Shown here one piece after another: positions 44,026 to 59,752 of a stretch of 64,000 nucleotides of DNA. Location: assembly GCF_027947535.2 (NCBI RefSeq), contig NZ_JAAGKO020000023.1, positions 1 through 64,000 on the forward strand, given 5' to 3'. Both the position numbers and the translations under genes were made by a program. The number at the start of each line of letters is the position of its first letter. Position 1 is the stretch's first letter. This stretch comes from Streptantibioticus silvisoli. Its GTDB lineage: Bacteria; Actinomycetota; Actinomycetes; Streptomycetales; Streptomycetaceae. Below the pieces are notes generated by a model. The model did not search any database. It was not told the origin of the DNA and saw only the letters and a program-made list of their open reading frames with translations.

Positions 44026-44877
44026 ATGTCCCTTCAGCTCACTGACCACGCGGTCACCGGGGTCGTCCGCCAGGCGGCGGGCGACGCGCCGACCGGTCGT
44101 ACCGCGTCCGTCTCCGATGTGCGCGACATGTCGCGGACGCTGTTCCGCAGACTCGCGACGCTGGAGGAGGGCACCGAGGAGTACCAGTACGTGCGCTCGA
44201 CCCTCATCGAGCTGAACACCACGCTGGTGCGGTACGCGGCGAAGCGCTTCAGCAACCACGCCGACCAGATGGAGGACATCCTCCAGGTCGGCACGATCGG
44301 CCTGATCAAGGCGGTCGACCGCTACGACCCGGACTACGGCACCGAGTTCGTCACCTTCGCCATGCCGACGATCCTGGGCGAGATGAAGCGGTTCTTCCGC
44401 GACACCTCCTGGGCGGTCCACGTGCCGCGCCGCCTTCAGGAGCTGCGCATCGACCTGGCGAAGACCACCGAGGCGCTCGCCGCCGAGCTGGACCGCGCCC
44501 CGACCGTCGCCGAACTCTCCGCGCGCCTGGAGGTCCCGGAGGAGGAGGTGATCGAGGCCCAGGTCGCCGCCAACGCCCACACCGCCGGCTCCATCGACGC
44601 CCAGATCGGTGGGGACGACGACGATGAGGGCCCGTCCTGGACGCACCGGCTGGGCTTCACCGACCCGGCGCTGGAGAGCGTGGAGAACGTGACGGCGCTC
44701 GCCCCGCTGATCGCCGGGCTGCCGGAACGCGAACGGGCCATCCTGTCCATGCGGTTCGGCGCCGACATGACGCAGTCGGCGATCGGCGCCGAGCTGGGCG
44801 TCTCCCAGATGCACGTCTCGCGCATCCTGACCCGCACCCTCGCCCGGCTGCGCCGCCAGCTGCTGGCCGACGCGTAG
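44026..44877 (+). CDS. SigB/SigF/SigG-family RNA polymerase sigma factor
   Basis: A 283-residue alternative sigma factor of group 3. Region 2: TLVRYAAKRFSNHADQMEDI then QVGTIGLIKAVDRYDPDYGTEFVTFAMPTILGEMKRFFRD. Region 3: ELDRAPTVAELSARLEVPEEEV. Region 4: ERERAILSMRFGADMTQSAIGAELGVSQMHVSRIL. It recruits core polymerase to SigB-type promoters and is usually held by an anti-sigma kinase freed by a dephosphorylated antagonist; none of these partners lies beside it. It shares about three quarters of its residues with the product at 58871. Confidence 0.93.
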   Translation: MSLQLTDHAVTGVVRQAAGDAPTGRTASVSDVRDMSRTLFRRLATLEEGTEEYQYVRSTLIELNTTLVRYAAKRFSNHADQMEDILQVGTIGLIKAVDRYDPDYGTEFVTFAMPTILGEMKRFFRDTSWAVHVPRRLQELRIDLAKTTEALAAELDRAPTVAELSARLEVPEEEVIEAQVAANAHTAGSIDAQIGGDDDDEGPSWTHRLGFTDPALESVENVTALAPLIAGLPERERAILSMRFGADMTQSAIGAELGVSQMHVSRILTRTLARLRRQLLADA

Positions 44878-51839: not shown

Positions 51840-52982
51840 TCACCCCCGCGTTCCGCCGCCGGAGGCCGCCGCAGCGGGGGCCAGCGTGCTGCGGCCGGCG
51901 GCGATGATCCGGGTGGCCCGGGGCAGGTCCTTCAGGCGGCCGGCCAGCAGGTCCAGGGTGAGCGGCAGGGAGTCCGCCGCGACGCGGCGCGCGGTGAGGA
52001 CGTCGGCGGACCAGGCCAGGTACGCCTCGAACAGGTCGTCGTCGTCGACGTAGAGCGCGGCGGCCAGGTAGCCGACGAGGTGGCCGAGGTCCTCGGCGGT
52101 GTGCCGCCGCTGCGTCGCGGTGGACTCCCGTACGGCGGGGACCCGCTCCTCCAGGCCGGCCAGCATCTCGCGGACCAGGGTGGTCGAGGTCTGGGTGACC
52201 AGGGCGTACTCGTGGTCGGCCAGGTGCGGCAGGTCGTCCAGGGCGGTCCGGTCGGAGCCGATGGGGAGCAGCGGGTCGGCCGTGAGCCGGTCGGCGGCGG
52301 AGCGGGCGTCCGGTGCCCAGGCGTCGGCGCCCAGCAGCCGGGCGTACCGGCCCCCGGGGCCGAAGGCGGCGCCGCCGGCCATCACCGGTACGCCGGCCGC
52401 CTGGCAGGCGGTGATGGTGGCGTGCGCGGCGGGCAGCCGGGTGGCCAGCGAACCGGACAGCAGCAGGACGTCCGGGTCGGTCAGGTGCAGGTGCGGGACG
52501 AGGTGCCGGGCCGGGACCTGCGCGCCGAGGTAGTCCACCCGCCAGCCGCGCAGCCGCAGCACCTCGGCCAGCATCCTCGCGGGCAGCGCGTGCCACTCGC
52601 CGTCCACGCAGGCCACCGTGGCCCGGCCCGGGGACGGGGCGCCGTCCGGGCGGCGGGCGGCGGGGTGCTGGGCCAGCGCGGCGACCGCCCGGTCGTTGAT
52701 GGCGGTGGCCAGGTGCTCGCGGGTGACGCTCATCCGGTTGGCGGCCCACTCCTCGCCGACCCGGCGCTGCACCGCGCCGACGACGTCGAGCAGCACCGCC
52801 TCCGGATCGATCCCGGCGCTCAGCGCGGTTCCGACGATGTCCAGCGCGGCCTGCTCGTCACCGGCGTCGACGGCCCGCCACAGGCATCGCGTCCACGGCA
52901 GGAGGTCGTCACCGCCGGTGCGGCGGCCCGGTTCGGCGGCGGCCGGGCCGGTCGCGGTGGCGGTACGGGAGTGACTGCTCAT
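51840..52982 (-). CDS. Cobalamin-binding protein, CarH-like without DNA-binding domain
   Basis: A 380-residue protein with a B12-binding helical bundle (about 35-115; TREHLATAINDRAVAAL) and a Rossmann-like B12 domain (about 118-245) with VDGEWHALPARMLAEVLRLRGWRVDYLGAQVP, DPDVLLLSGSLATRLP and GVPVMAGGAAFGPGGR. The His in GEWH may be the lower cobalt ligand. The rest (about 250-380) is helical (LLRDM-type phosphatase-free region). There is no MerR helix-turn-helix, so it differs from CarH/LitR; it may act as a partner that passes a B12, light or redox signal. Divergent from a MarR gene. Confidence 0.7.
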   Translation of the reverse strand: MSSHSRTATATGPAAAEPGRRTGGDDLLPWTRCLWRAVDAGDEQAALDIVGTALSAGIDPEAVLLDVVGAVQRRVGEEWAANRMSVTREHLATAINDRAVAALAQHPAARRPDGAPSPGRATVACVDGEWHALPARMLAEVLRLRGWRVDYLGAQVPARHLVPHLHLTDPDVLLLSGSLATRLPAAHATITACQAAGVPVMAGGAAFGPGGRYARLLGADAWAPDARSAADRLTADPLLPIGSDRTALDDLPHLADHEYALVTQTSTTLVREMLAGLEERVPAVRESTATQRRHTAEDLGHLVGYLAAALYVDDDDLFEAYLAWSADVLTARRVAADSLPLTLDLLAGRLKDLPRATRIIAAGRSTLAPAAAASGGGTRG

Positions 52983-53448: not shown

Positions 53449-53943
53449 TCAGGCGGTCTCGGCCTCGGACGTGCCGGACGGCCGCAACGGTGACTGCATG
53501 CGGGAGAAGGCGGTGTCGCAGAACGCCTCCAGCCCGTCGAGCAGCGCCGCGCGCTTGGCGGCCGGCATCTGCTCGATCACCGCGCTCAGCTCCTTCTCCC
53601 GGCGAGTGCGCAGGTCCCGCAGGAACGCGCTGCCGCGACCGCTGAGGTGCAGTTGCAGCTCACGGCGGCTGCTGGAACTCGGCGCGCGCTCCACGAACCC
53701 GACCGCCTGGAGCCGGTCGCACAGCCGGCTCACCGACGGCGGTGTGGAGCCCAGCGCGTCGGCGAGGGTGCGCAGGTTGATGCCCTCGTTGTGTTCGAGG
53801 ATGAACAGCACCCGCAGCTGGGAGGACGACACCGGCGCGGTCGAGGCCCGTCCCCACAGCACCTCCAGCAGTTCCGCGGCTACGGAGGTCACCCGCGACA
53901 CCTCGTCCGACACCCGCCGGCGCTGTGGAAGGGAAGGATTCAC
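53449..53943 (-). CDS. MarR-family transcriptional regulator
   Basis: A 164-residue winged-helix regulator: VSSSQLRVLFILEHNEGINLRTLADALGSTPPSVSRLCDRLQAVGFVERAPSSSSRRELQLHL at about 40-105, then a dimerisation helix (KELSAVIEQMPAAKRAALLDGLEAF). GTG at 53943 is listed as the outer start; GTG at the VSDEVSR residue is an alternative. Divergent from the first SpoIIE-like phosphatase with 145 bases between, so it may control that gene. MarR proteins release DNA on binding phenolic or oxidising ligands. Confidence 0.85.
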   Translation of the reverse strand: MNPSLPQRRRVSDEVSRVTSVAAELLEVLWGRASTAPVSSSQLRVLFILEHNEGINLRTLADALGSTPPSVSRLCDRLQAVGFVERAPSSSSRRELQLHLSGRGSAFLRDLRTRREKELSAVIEQMPAAKRAALLDGLEAFCDTAFSRMQSPLRPSGTSEAETA

Positions 53944-54088: not shown

Positions 54089-55258
54089 GTGAACACCAAC
54101 GTGAACAGATTCCTGGCGGCGGAACGCGCCCTGCGTACCGCGGCCCCGCACCGGCTGGTGGAGGAGGTACGCCGCGTACTCACCGAGTCCTACGCGGTGG
54201 AGGGCGCCGACCTGCTGATGGCCGACTACGGGCTGACCGTGCTGCGTCCGGTCGGCGGCGAGCGGGAGCCGGGAGCGGAGACCGGGCTGCACAACACGCC
54301 GCAGGGCCGGGCGTTCGCCTCGCAGCAGCCGCTGCTGGAGGAGACCGGCGACGGCCGGGTCCTGGTCCACCTGCCGGTGTCGGTGCGCGGCGACCGGCTC
54401 GGGGTGCTGTCGCTGACCGCGGCGGCCGACCGGTGCGGCCCCGACGCGGTCGCCGAGTGGAGCGACCTGGCGCAGGTGCTGGCCCGGGAGGTGGTGATCG
54501 CCGAACGGGACACCGACCTGTACCTGCGCGCCCGGCGGCGCAGCCGGCTGACGCTGGCCGCCGAGATGCAGTGGCGGCTGCTGCCCGGCAACTCCCGGGT
54601 GCACCGCGAGTACGCCTGGGGCGCCCACCTGGTGCCGGCGTACGCCATCGACGGCGACAACTTCGACCTGTCCGCCGACGACGACCGCCTGACGGTGACG
54701 GTGACCAGCGGCATGGGCGAGGGCGCGGAGGCGGCGCAGCTGACCGGGCTGACCATCAGCGCGCTGCGCAACGCCCGCCGGGCCGGCCTGGGGGTGGCCG
54801 ACCAGGCGGCGCTGGCCGACCAGGCGGTCTTCGCGCACTACCGGGGCCGCGCCCACCTGTCGGTGCTGCTGCTGGAGTTCGAGTTCGGCACCGGCAGGGT
54901 GCAGGTGGTCGACGCCGGTTCGCCGCGGCTGCTGCGGCTGCGCTCCGGGGCGGTCGAGCCGGTCGAGTTCGAACCGCAGCTGCCGCTGGGGATGTTCGAG
55001 GAGACCGACTACGCGGCGCAGGAGTTCTTCGTGGAGCCCGGCGACCGGCTGGTGATCGTCAGCGACGGGGTGCACGCCACGGCCCCGGACGCCGAGCGCG
55101 ACGGGCTGCGGGCGCTGGCGCGGGCCATCACCACCACGCGGCTGCTGTCGGCCGCCGAGATGCCCGGCGCGGTGCTGCGGGTGCTGGCCGGCCACCGGGA
55201 GATCACCACGCCGGACGCCGACGCACTGGTGCTGTGCCTGGACTGGTTCGGCCGCTGA
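54089..55258 (+). CDS. SpoIIE-like PP2C phosphatase with lost metal Asp (A)
   Basis: A 389-residue protein: a GAF-like sensor (about 20-135; EGADLLMADYGLTVLRPVGG), a short helical linker, and a PP2C/SpoIIE domain (about 160-389). GDNFD at 189-193 and SDG at 325-327 are kept, but the usual D-G-M/V-x-G-H-G is SGMGEG at 207-212, so the second metal-binding Asp is Ser and His is Glu. It may have weak or no catalysis. Its neighbour B shows the opposite loss. In Streptomyces such proteins act on anti-sigma antagonists. Start GTG at 54089. Confidence 0.85.
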   Translation: MNTNVNRFLAAERALRTAAPHRLVEEVRRVLTESYAVEGADLLMADYGLTVLRPVGGEREPGAETGLHNTPQGRAFASQQPLLEETGDGRVLVHLPVSVRGDRLGVLSLTAAADRCGPDAVAEWSDLAQVLAREVVIAERDTDLYLRARRRSRLTLAAEMQWRLLPGNSRVHREYAWGAHLVPAYAIDGDNFDLSADDDRLTVTVTSGMGEGAEAAQLTGLTISALRNARRAGLGVADQAALADQAVFAHYRGRAHLSVLLLEFEFGTGRVQVVDAGSPRLLRLRSGAVEPVEFEPQLPLGMFEETDYAAQEFFVEPGDRLVIVSDGVHATAPDAERDGLRALARAITTTRLLSAAEMPGAVLRVLAGHREITTPDADALVLCLDWFGR

Positions 55259-55364
55259 GCAGCGCTCCGTCCCGGCGGAGCGACGACTACGGTGGGGCGT
55301 GCGGACGGCTCGCGTCTCACCGGCGGCCGGGAAACGGCACCGCAGGCCCCGAAAGGACAATCCG

Positions 55365-56552
55365 ATGAGCGAAGCCCGTCCCCGGACGACGGTGGAGAGC
55401 GCCCTGCGCGACACGCCGCCGCACGCCCTGCTGAGAACCGTCCGCTCGCTGCTGGCCGAACGGGTCGGCGCCCAGGACGTCACGCTGCGGCTCGCGGACT
55501 ACGGTGCCGCCGTCCTCCAGGCGGTCGGCGACGGCCCCGAGCCCGACCCCGAGCTGACGGTGCCGGCCCGCAGCGGCACGCCGGGGCGGGCGTTCTCCGC
55601 GCAGCGGCCGGTGCTGGAGGAGGTCGGCGACGACGGGGCGGTGCTGACCCACCGACCGGTCACGGTGCGCGGTGACCGGCTCGGGCTGCTGTCGGTCCTC
55701 CTGCCGTCCGCGGCGGCGGCCGAGAAGGCGGCCGACGAGCTGGCGGCGATGGCCGACGCGCTGGCCCACGAACTGATGGCGGCCGACCGGGACACCGACC
55801 TGTACGTGCGCAGCCGGCGCCGCAAGCGGCTGACGCTGGCCGCCGAGATGCAGTGGGCGATGCTGCCGGGGCGCGGCTGCGTACGGGACGAGTACACGAT
55901 CGGCGCCCACCTGGAGCCCGCGTACTCGATCGGCGGGGACAACTTCGACTGGAGCAGCGGCGACGGGCTGCTGACGCTGAGCGTGACCGACGGCATGGGC
56001 CACGGCATGGACGCGGCGCTGCTGACCGGGCTGGCGGTCTCCGCGCTGCGCAACGCCCGCCGGGCCGGGCTGGGGGTGGTGGACCAGGCGGCGCTGGCCG
56101 ACCAGGCGGTCTTCGCGCAGTACCAGGGCGCCTCCTACGCCGCGAGCCTGCTGCTGTCGTTCGACCTGGCCACCGGCGCCGTGGAGGCGGTCGACGCCGG
56201 CTCGCCGCGGGTGTACCGGATGCGGGCCGGCGAGGTGAACCTCGTTCCGCTGGAGCCGCAGCTGCCGCTGGGGATGTTCGAGGACACGCCGTACACGTCG
56301 CAGACGTTCCAGATGGAGGCCGGCGACCGGCTGGTGATCGTCAGCACCGGGGTGCACACCACGGCGTCGGCGACGGGTGTGGCGTACGGGGAGCGGGAGC
56401 TGTGCCGGCGGGTGCGGGCGACCCGGCTGGGGTCGCCGACCGAGACGGCGCACGCGGTGGTCAACGGGCTGATCGAGTACTCCGGCTCGTCCGAGCTGGC
56501 CGCCGACGCCTCGGTGGTGTGCGTGGACTGGCGGGGCCGCCCGACACCCTGA
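55365..56552 (+). CDS. SpoIIE-like PP2C phosphatase with lost metal Asp (B)
   Basis: A 395-residue paralogue of A, with the same order of GAF-like and PP2C domains. TDGMGHG at 208-214 is intact and resembles SpoIIE, but the SDG motif is STG at 327-329 (Asp to Thr). GDNFD is at 191-195. GAAAGGA precedes the ATG. It starts 107 bases after A and the two share long identical stretches (RLTLAAEMQW, RNARRAGLGV, QAALADQAVFA), so they are a tandem duplication. Whether they form a heterodimer is unknown. Confidence 0.85.
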   Translation: MSEARPRTTVESALRDTPPHALLRTVRSLLAERVGAQDVTLRLADYGAAVLQAVGDGPEPDPELTVPARSGTPGRAFSAQRPVLEEVGDDGAVLTHRPVTVRGDRLGLLSVLLPSAAAAEKAADELAAMADALAHELMAADRDTDLYVRSRRRKRLTLAAEMQWAMLPGRGCVRDEYTIGAHLEPAYSIGGDNFDWSSGDGLLTLSVTDGMGHGMDAALLTGLAVSALRNARRAGLGVVDQAALADQAVFAQYQGASYAASLLLSFDLATGAVEAVDAGSPRVYRMRAGEVNLVPLEPQLPLGMFEDTPYTSQTFQMEAGDRLVIVSTGVHTTASATGVAYGERELCRRVRATRLGSPTETAHAVVNGLIEYSGSSELAADASVVCVDWRGRPTP

Positions 56553-56670: not shown

Positions 56671-57147
56671 TCAGGACGCGTTGTCCTGCTCGGCGTCGCG
56701 GCCGGGGTCGGCGGCGTCCTGGAAGGCGGTGAGGCCGCTGGTCAGGTCGCGGACCCGGTCGGGCGGCATGCGGCGCAGCACGTCGTTGAGGTCGCGGCGG
56801 CGCCGGTCGTCGACGGCGGCGAGCAGTGTCCGGCCCTGGTGGGTGACGCGCAGCGCGGTCTCGCGGCGGTTGCCCGGTGAGGCGGTGCGTTCCAGCAGGC
56901 CGGCGGCCTCCAGCCGGTCGCACAGCCGGCTGGCCGAGGACAGTGCCATGCCGGCCGCCTCGGCGAGGCCGGTGATGTTGGTGCCCTCCTCCTGGGCCAC
57001 GATGCCCAGCGCCCGCAGCTGGTGCGCGGACAGCCGGGGTGAGGCGGCGGCCCCGCCGCGCGCCCACAGTTCGGTCAGCGCGGCCACCGGCGCGGCGATC
57101 TCCTCGACCGCCGCCGGATCACGGTTTCGTCCGCCCTCGTCCGCCAT
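56671..57147 (-). CDS. MarR-family transcriptional regulator 2
   Basis: A 158-residue winged-helix protein: LSAHQLRALGIVAQEEGTNITGLAEAAGMALSSASRLCDRLEAAGLLERTASPGNRRETALRVTHQGRTLL. It shares the LGSTPPSVSRLCDRL-like recognition helix (SSASRLCDRLEA) with the MarR at 53449. Convergent with phosphatase B. It may be the second regulator of this locus. Confidence 0.87.
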   Translation of the reverse strand: MADEGGRNRDPAAVEEIAAPVAALTELWARGGAAASPRLSAHQLRALGIVAQEEGTNITGLAEAAGMALSSASRLCDRLEAAGLLERTASPGNRRETALRVTHQGRTLLAAVDDRRRRDLNDVLRRMPPDRVRDLTSGLTAFQDAADPGRDAEQDNAS

Positions 57148-57279: not shown

Positions 57280-58563
57280 TTACCCGCTGGCGCCCGGATC
57301 ATGCGGAACCGGTTCGAGCAGTACGACGGCGACGTCGTCGGCGAAGCCGTCCCCGGCGGTGGTGACCGCTTCGGCGTCCGCCATCAGGCCGTCGGTGAAG
57401 GCCGGTCCCGGCAGGCCGGTGAGGCGGTTGGCCAGCGCCACCAGGCCGTCCTCGCCGAGCCGGGCCGCACCGGCGCCGCCGAGCCGCCCCTCGCACAGCC
57501 CGTCGGTGAACAGCACCGCGCTGCCGCCCGGCGGCAGCTCGACCTCGTCCTGGGTCCAGTCGGCCCCGGCCAGCAGGCCCAGGGCCGGTCCGCGCGCGGG
57601 GTCGGCCAGCCGTACCCCGGTGGGCGAGCGGATCAGCAGCCCGGGGTGGCCGGCCCGCAGCACCCGCAGCACCGGGTCGCCGGGGTGCAGGGCGAGCACG
57701 CAGACGGTGGCGTACATCTCGGGGCCGGCCCGCTCGGCGAGCGTGATGCGTTCCAGGTAGCGGATCAGCGCCGGGCCGCGTACCCCGCTGAGGACCAGGG
57801 TGCGCCAGGCGATGCGCAGGCAGACGCCGAGCGCGGCGGCGTCGGGGCCGTGCCCGGAGACGTCGCCGATCACGGCGTGCACCACACCGTGGTCGTCCTC
57901 CACGACGTCGTAGAAGTCGCCGCCGAGCAGCGCGGTGCTGCGGCCGGGCCGGTAACGGGCGGTGACCCGCACCCGGGGCACGTCGCCGAGCAGCGGGACC
58001 GGCAGCAGGCCGCGGGCGAGGCGGGCGTTCTCCTCGGCGCGCAGCCGTTCGGCCTGGAGGGCGGCCGCGGCGGCCTCGGTCTGCTTGCGCTGGACGGCGT
58101 AGCTGACGGTACGGCGCAGCAGGTCGGGGTCGACGCGGTCCTTGATGAGGTAGTCCTGCGCGCCGGCGGCGACGGCGGCCAGGCCGTCGCGTTCCCCGGC
58201 CAGGCCGGTCATGACGACGACGGCGGCGCCCGCCGCGTGGGCCAGCACCTCGGCCAGCACGCGCCGGCCGCGCGCGTCGGGCAGGTGGAGGTCGAGCAGC
58301 ACGCACTGCGGGGGCCGGGTGCGCAGGGCCAGCAGGGCGTCAGCCAGCGTGCTGGCCCAGCGCGGCCGGGCGCCGAGTCCGCTGTCGGCGAGCAGCGTCT
58401 CGATCAGCAGGGCGTCGGCCGGGTCGTCCTCGACCAGCAGGACCGACAGCGGCGCGGTGCCGGTCCCGGAACGCGGTTCGGGCAGCGTGCCCTGCCGGGG
58501 CGGCGGGGCGGTGGTGGAAGGCGGTTCTGGCGCCGGGCGCAGGGGCCCGAGCTCGGAGGCCAT
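57280..58563 (-). CDS. Response regulator fused to PP2C phosphatase (RssB-like)
   Basis: A 427-residue protein. After a Pro-rich N-terminus (1-37), a receiver domain (about 38-160) has the acidic EDD at 45-47, phosphoacceptor Asp in LLDLHLP (residue 91), Thr at 119 and Lys at 141. A short coiled coil leads to a complete PP2C domain (about 195-415) with GGDFYD, IGDVSGHG, FTDGL and ADDVAVV, all metal ligands present. It should be an active phosphatase switched by phosphorylation and probably feeds the sigma system beside it. It is divergent from the sigma gene at 58871. Confidence 0.9.
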   Translation of the reverse strand: MASELGPLRPAPEPPSTTAPPPRQGTLPEPRSGTGTAPLSVLLVEDDPADALLIETLLADSGLGARPRWASTLADALLALRTRPPQCVLLDLHLPDARGRRVLAEVLAHAAGAAVVVMTGLAGERDGLAAVAAGAQDYLIKDRVDPDLLRRTVSYAVQRKQTEAAAAALQAERLRAEENARLARGLLPVPLLGDVPRVRVTARYRPGRSTALLGGDFYDVVEDDHGVVHAVIGDVSGHGPDAAALGVCLRIAWRTLVLSGVRGPALIRYLERITLAERAGPEMYATVCVLALHPGDPVLRVLRAGHPGLLIRSPTGVRLADPARGPALGLLAGADWTQDEVELPPGGSAVLFTDGLCEGRLGGAGAARLGEDGLVALANRLTGLPGPAFTDGLMADAEAVTTAGDGFADDVAVVLLEPVPHDPGASG

Positions 58564-58828: not shown

Positions 58829-58870
58829 CCGCTGACTGTTGTCGTTCGGCAAGAGTCCTTGGGAGAGGCC

Positions 58871-59752
58871 ATGACGGTTGGGTTCCAGGAGCAGGTCACC
58901 ACGGGTGCCGTCGCACCCCTGTTGAGCGGATCGGCCGCCATCCCGTCGGCGCGCTACGGCACCGCGGCGGGCGGCCGGGAGACCCCGGTCTCCGAGATCA
59001 AGGAGGTCTCCCGGACGCTGTTCCGGCGGCTGGCCGCGCTGGAGGAGGGCACCGGCGAGTACCAGTACGTGCGCGGCACCCTGATCGAACTCAACATGAC
59101 CCTGGTCCGGTTCGCCGCCAAGCGGTTCAGCAACCACGCCGACCAGATGGAGGACATCATCCAGGTCGGCACGATCGGCCTGATCAAGGCGGTCGACCGC
59201 TACGACCCGGACTACGGCACCGAGTTCGTCACCTTCGCCATGCCGACCATCGTCGGGGAGATGAAGCGGTTCTTCCGCGACACCTCCTGGGCGGTCCACG
59301 TGCCGCGCCGCCTTCAGGAGCTGCGCATCGACCTGGCCAAGACCAACGACCTCCTGGCCGCCGAACTCGACCGCGCCCCCACCGTCGCCGAACTCGCCGC
59401 GCGCCTGGAGGTCTCGGAGGAGGAGGTGATCGAGGCCCAGGTCGCCGCCAACGCCCACACCGCCAGCTCCATCGACGCCCAGATCGGTGACGAGGAGGAC
59501 GAGGGCACCGCGTGGGCCACCCGGATCGGCTTCGAGGACCCGGCGCTCGAGGGCATCGAGAACCTCAACGCCCTCAAGCCGCTGATCGCCGAACTCCCCG
59601 AGCGCGAGCGGGCCATCCTGTCGATGCGCTTCGGCGCCGACATGACCCAGGCCGCCATCGGCGCCGAACTCGGCCTGTCCCAGATGCACATCTCGCGGCT
59701 GCTCTCCACCACGTTGAACCGGCTGCGCCGCCGGCTGCTGACCGAGGCCTGA
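58871..59752 (+). CDS. SigB/SigF/SigG-family sigma factor, second paralogue
   Basis: A 293-residue sigma factor closely related to the product at 44026; regions 2 to 4 are nearly identical (FSNHADQMEDIIQVGTIGLI, VTFAMPTIVGEMKRFFRDTS, RAILSMRFGADMTQAAIGAE). The N-terminal 40 residues differ, and that is where the two may be told apart by partners. ATG at 58871 has GGGAGAGG upstream. No RsbW-type kinase or RsbV-type antagonist is encoded in the window, so regulation must use partners elsewhere or the nearby phosphatases. Confidence 0.93.
   Translation: MTVGFQEQVTTGAVAPLLSGSAAIPSARYGTAAGGRETPVSEIKEVSRTLFRRLAALEEGTGEYQYVRGTLIELNMTLVRFAAKRFSNHADQMEDIIQVGTIGLIKAVDRYDPDYGTEFVTFAMPTIVGEMKRFFRDTSWAVHVPRRLQELRIDLAKTNDLLAAELDRAPTVAELAARLEVSEEEVIEAQVAANAHTASSIDAQIGDEEDEGTAWATRIGFEDPALEGIENLNALKPLIAELPERERAILSMRFGADMTQAAIGAELGLSQMHISRLLSTTLNRLRRRLLTEA

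Follow-up and report, generated by a model that had tools for sequence, protein, structure and literature searches.

Two adjacent genes of the window (the whole 64,000-nucleotide stretch of Streptantibioticus silvisoli DNA analysed), called here paralogues A and B, lie on the same strand with a gap of about 106 bases, and their products share 54% identity over almost the full length (Table 1). Both proteins belong to the SpoIIE/PPM (PP2C) superfamily: the matches to Pfam SpoIIE (PF07228, cut-off 25 bits) scored 105 bits for A (E 6e-30) and 121 bits for B (E 7e-35), and the best Foldseek match of both AlphaFold models was SpoIIE 5ucg, with 3ke6, Rv1364c, RsbX and RssB also among the top matches. 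The architecture was alike in the two models: a GAF-like N domain (called from the order of predicted secondary-structure elements, and with no Pfam match), a helical linker and the SpoIIE/PPM domain. Mean pLDDT was moderate (78.5 for A and 76.7 for B), with poor prediction of the linker and of the loop preceding GDNFD.

Table 1. Positions in the window of the A/B genes, their neighbours and the codons aligned with the metal ligands of SpoIIE.
Feature	Positions	Strand	Remarks
Second SigB/F/G-type sigma gene	44080..44817	+	
B12-binding-domain protein	51840..52982	-	PF02310 and PF02607
MarR1 regulator	53449..53943	-	divergent to A; start set by orthologue comparison
Paralogue A	54089..55258	+	389 aa; GTG start; ends at stop 55258
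A Asp190 codon	54656..54658	+	SpoIIE Asp610 equivalent, kept
A Ser207 codon (AGC)	54707..54709	+	SpoIIE Asp628 equivalent; Asn (AAC) in 117/125 A-type relatives
A Asp326 codon	55064..55066	+	SpoIIE Asp746 equivalent, kept
A Ala377 codon (GCC)	55217..55219	+	SpoIIE Asp795 equivalent; Asp in the remaining 124 A-type sequences
Paralogue B	55365..56552	+	395 aa; ATG start; ends at stop 56552
B Asp209 codon	55989..55991	+	SpoIIE Asp628 equivalent; kept in 22/22 B-type
B Thr328 codon (ACC)	56346..56348	+	SpoIIE Asp746 equivalent; Ser 11/Thr 11 in B-type
B Ala380 codon (GCC)	56502..56504	+	SpoIIE Asp795 equivalent; Ala/Ser/Thr across B-type
MarR2 regulator	56671..57147	-	convergent with B
REC-SpoIIE phosphatase	57280..58563	-	ligand set intact
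SigB/SigF/SigG-family sigma factor	58859..59752	+	homologue near 34/105 A-type loci

Metal-ligand residues of the pair and its relatives

The PPM fold and the switch helices of A and B are shared with the phosphatase domain of Bacillus subtilis SpoIIE, which keeps Asp610, Asp628, Asp746 and Asp795, whereas A and B do not. In SpoIIE, Mn1 is bound by Asp628, Asp746 and Asp795, and the second metal site is formed by Asp610, Asp628 and the carbonyl of Gly629 (PMC3517971). The initial annotation had reported Ser207, Glu211 and Asp326 in A, and Asp209, His213 and Thr328 in B; frames, numbering and identities were all correct. Misalignment of the motifs was rejected, since A and B aligned without gaps across them and separate alignments with relatives agreed. 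Equivalents of 610 and 746 (the Asp of SDG) were kept in A and those of 628 (the Asp of the DG motif) and 795 lost; B kept 610 (Asp192) and 628, and lost 746 and 795. The fourth ligand, Asp795 of SpoIIE (the first Asp of the DD motif), had been overlooked and is Ala in both proteins, so the opposite losses proposed for the pair hold at 628 (A) versus 746 (B), but not at 795, which is missing from both. Neither A nor B has the four Asp (610, 628, 746 and 795) of a catalytically active SpoIIE/PPM phosphatase, and, as had been suggested, neither is likely to work as a normal phosphatase alone.

Among 49 aligned SpoIIE-type domains of the same genome, a baseline drawn from the fetched stretches, 44 kept all four ligand Asp, and A and B were among the five exceptions. 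Other altered ligand motifs were also seen in this genome: TNG in place of an SDG-type motif (locus L004), loss of three of the four ligand Asp (L198) and a DG-type Asp changed to Gly (L204).

Two hundred and ninety-nine genomes of the family were searched, A- or B-like proteins were found in 148, and the loci were fetched and aligned. Among A-type proteins (n=125), position 207 was Asn in 117, Asp in 7 and Ser in one (the window protein), positions 190 and 326 were Asp in all 125, and position 377 was Asp in 124, the window protein being the exception. Among B-type proteins (n=22, A numbering), 190 and 207 were Asp in 22/22, 326 was Ser (11) or Thr (11), and 377 was Ala (15), Ser (6) or Thr (1). 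Position 207 was the column separating the A and B clades most clearly, and 326 and 377 belonged to a small set of columns fixed in A and free in B. Whether orthologous pairs would share the reciprocal pattern had been raised initially as a check; they do, and because the same opposite pattern recurs across the homologues (125 A-type, 22 B-type) it is not due to chance. The reciprocal pattern characterises the two clades, and the window pair is an extreme case of it.

The seven A-type proteins with Asp at 207 have the full ligand set, and some of them may be active. Asn and Asp codons (AAC/GAC) are one base apart, and Asp occurred in several A lineages. Spontaneous Asn-Gly deamidation of the A-type motif NGMGEG, which would give back Asp, was also considered. 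The idea that Glu211 must stand in as a ligand for Asn207 was rejected: Lys, Thr, Ala, Asn and Gln were also found at this position together with Asn207. A diverged member of the subfamily encoded beside an A-type gene (L228:3531-5357, + strand) carried H, D, C and E at the ligand positions, and with a single usual ligand Asp left it constitutes a third degenerate form.

These residues bear on the idea that one or both proteins have kept phosphatase activity by means of a remodelled metal site, in which A would hold metal 1 via Asn207, Asp326 and Asp377, and B would hold metal 2 via Asp192, Asp209 and the Gly carbonyl. The ligands kept are invariant in each clade, Asn and Asp interconvert in A, and one crystal form of SpoIIE contained a single Mn (PMC3517971). 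Position 326 of B is always Ser or Thr despite the two base changes needed from GAC, and a hydroxyl therefore seems to be selected there. PPM chemistry nevertheless uses two metals sharing Asp628, and the window A protein is missing two of the four Asp; we consider such residual activity rather unlikely, though worth keeping in mind.

Ancestry and selection of the two clades

A-type and B-type proteins formed two separate clades in a tree with paralogues of genome G000 as outgroup, also when it was repeated without the ligand columns. On the B stem, 746 and 795 were each lost once. At the 628 position, Asp and Asn were equally parsimonious for the common ancestor of A and B, and distant actinomycete relatives had mostly Asn (L219-L222 and L224-L226; Asp in L223). 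The initial view of a duplicated pair that had lost different ligands is thus borne out for B, with two Asp lost once on its stem, but not for A, for which loss from a complete ancestor is not established because the ancestral state is tied and deep relatives mostly have Asn. The same distant relatives (L219-L226) showed that a MarR gene paired with a PPM gene, in which the DG position mostly reads Asn, is present outside Streptomycetaceae; since it is found in other actinomycete families, the MarR-PPM unit is older in actinomycetes than the A/B pair.

Median dN/dS between close pairs was 0.20 for A and 0.28 for B: both lineages are under purifying selection and are not decaying genes, and a pseudogene reading was rejected given these values and the intact ORFs. 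The loop plus alpha1-alpha2 (alpha1-alpha2 being the switch and dimer interface of the SpoIIE/RsbU family; PMC5468089, PMC12143880) was the best-conserved segment between A and B (71% between clades and 78% in the window), and the C-terminal segment the least conserved (39% between clades). In this C-terminal segment, B-B pairs were less similar than A-A pairs (61% vs. 68%), whereas elsewhere B-B identity was equal to or higher than A-A identity, indicating relaxation of the C-terminal half of B. The N-terminal half of A was not relaxed.

Gene neighbourhood and co-occurrence

A MarR gene accompanied 102 of 105 A-type and 17 of 19 B-type loci within the sequence fetched for each; an inverted repeat was looked for between MarR1 and A, and none was found. 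Homologues of rsbR, rsbS or rsbT (assigned from Pfam RsbRD_N+STAS, STAS and HATPase matches of a representative) were found in the stretches around 48/105 A-type and 9/19 B-type loci, but not in the window. Seven loci (L083-L086, L091, L093 and L097) had the order MarR1, A, rsbR, rsbS, rsbT, HATPase-SpoIIE (rsbX-like), an intact SpoIIE phosphatase, B and MarR2. As several genomes encode an intact SpoIIE between A and B, phosphatases with intact ligands are already available at the locus. In the window, A adjoins B without rsbRST, and the single RsbRD_N gene of the genome lies on contig 48, next to rsbS- and rsbT-like genes. The REC-SpoIIE protein of the window, with its intact ligands, is plausibly the active phosphatase of the locus, and a homologue of it (70% identity) adjoins B in L100/L101.

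The second sigma gene of the window, about 14 kb from the one listed beside REC-SpoIIE, was approximately 83% identical to it. The B12-binding-domain protein had weak likeness to CarH and corrinoid proteins, and its homologues recurred near A/B-type loci (9 of 116 stretches), which makes a sensor of light or cobalamin within the A/B regulatory neighbourhood possible.

A and B resemble RsbU and RsbP, PPM phosphatases dephosphorylating RsbV (RsbT activates RsbU), in the succession of sensor domain, helical linker and PPM domain, and their genes often adjoin rsbR-rsbS-rsbT and SigB-type sigma genes. They differ from RsbU/RsbP in the metal ligands missing by a fixed clade pattern, in an N domain which is GAF-like and not that of RsbU, and in the attached MarR genes.

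The location of the rsbRST genes on a different contig in this strain would suit a pair of relaxed, already non-functional relics heading to loss, as would the long terminal branches of the window A and B proteins (0.67 and 0.86, respectively) and the fact that the window A is the sole one of 125 without the Asp795 equivalent and also has Ser207. We find this improbable for the window pair, whose ORFs are intact, whose two MarR neighbours are both present, and whose relatives are under purifying selection.

Every genome in which B was recognised also had A (20/20, vs. 148/299 overall; hypergeometric 4e-7, relatedness ignored), counting G233, where A was seen only as a damaged copy close to the end of a contig. 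The two genes were mostly within about 6 kb of each other, A before B. A with Asn was kept in well over 100 genomes where B was not found; position 207 of A was Asn or Ser in 25/25 proteins accompanied by B, and Asn (93) or Asp (7) in those without B, counts that do not speak for or against a dependence of Asn on B. A truncated or frameshifted B-type copy was observed immediately 3' of the A orthologue in genome G016 (L142:6130-7254, - strand), with an intact B on another contig.

The co-occurrence of A and B could reflect a heterodimer formed by domain swapping and having a single composite active site, in which b1-b3 of B would give the Asp610 and Asp628 equivalents, and the rest of A those of Asp746 and Asp795. 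The crystal dimer of SpoIIE(590-827) swaps precisely b1-b3, with the crossover just past Asp628-Gly629 and Asp628 given by the partner chain (PMC3517971); the losses of the A and B clades fall exactly on opposite sides of this boundary, and the C-terminal segment of B is relaxed compared with its other segments, which would be expected of a part that is not used. That partition would nonetheless arise about once in six by chance when one ligand is lost from A and two from B; the N-terminal half of A shows no corresponding relaxation, and A with Asn persists without B. Moreover, swapping in the SpoIIE dimer is a product of crystallisation, the domain being monomeric in solution and its active dimer unswapped (PMC3517971, PMC5468089); A624I was made in SpoIIE to block swapping (PMC5468089). 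For the window pair, the heterodimer complementation proposed initially is not supported as it stood: a heterodimer could not complete the four-Asp site, both proteins being without the Asp795 equivalent. A complete ligand set is obtained on paper from B and other A-type sequences, and in species with the typical pattern A and B might swap b1-b3 and form one complete Mn site only together, the window pair being a further-degenerated descendant; we judge this quite unlikely. If true, A and B would be a naturally split phosphatase and would serve as an AND gate for a stressosome operon.

Possible roles of A and B

On balance, A and B are probably RsbU-derived pseudophosphatases, or severely altered phosphatases, regulating partner switching via the conserved dimer interface, although this attribution is made with restrained confidence. 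Clade-fixed losses, purifying selection, the retained interface and the intact phosphatases encoded nearby fit a regulatory pseudophosphatase; loss of ligand residues combined with purifying selection is what would be expected of an RssB-like protein. That some twenty related species preserve the same opposite pattern suggests a division of roles that has been maintained, and not decay.

In this view, A and B would be two sister lineages of RsbU-type GAF-PPM proteins, both old and both maintained by selection, that belong to a partner-switching (stressosome) locus flanked by MarR genes. Normal two-metal chemistry would have been given up by A through Asn or Ser in place of the bridging Asp of DGxGxG, and by B through Ser/Thr and Ala/Ser at the two Asp of the C-terminal half, and both would still have the PPM fold, the linker and the dimer interface formed by the switch helices. 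The proteins could bind phospho-STAS or kinase partners, each other or an active paralogue, and may set a threshold for the neighbouring active phosphatases, not dephosphorylating at normal rates themselves; we infer these partners, the lack of activity and an effect on sigma activity that may be up or down. Two features count against the pseudophosphatase reading: the seven A-type proteins with a full ligand set, and the retention of 610, 746 and 795 almost invariantly in A and of 610/628 in B, more than a metal-free scaffold would seem to need, and one-metal or low activity is accordingly possible.

RssB is an accepted pseudoenzyme that has no phosphatase activity and works through the PP2C switch (PMC5468089). 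As in RssB, a PPM domain would be retained in A and B for regulation, and their models match it in Foldseek, but RssB is a REC-PPM protease adaptor, and neither a stressosome neighbour nor part of a reciprocal pair. Another paralogue pair, AdoMetDC-prozyme of Trypanosoma brucei, has a catalytically dead partner that activates the enzyme (PMC5201418); there one partner retains the active site, whereas neither A nor B does. The initial annotation knew of no such system, and a search of open-licence literature found no description of the A/B pair or of MarR-linked degenerate SpoIIE proteins, which is weak evidence of novelty.

The widespread A-type protein of Streptomyces is labelled “PP2C family protein-serine/threonine phosphatase” at NCBI, though the normal metal site is absent in nearly every species; its sister lineage B has the mirror-image defect, and both lie on stress-signalling loci. 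Should A and B prove to be pseudophosphatases, the large partner-switching network of actinomycetes would be partly mis-annotated as enzymatic, and the A/B pairs would offer a clean system for studying how the PPM fold regulates without catalysis, or whether one enzyme can be built from two half-sites.
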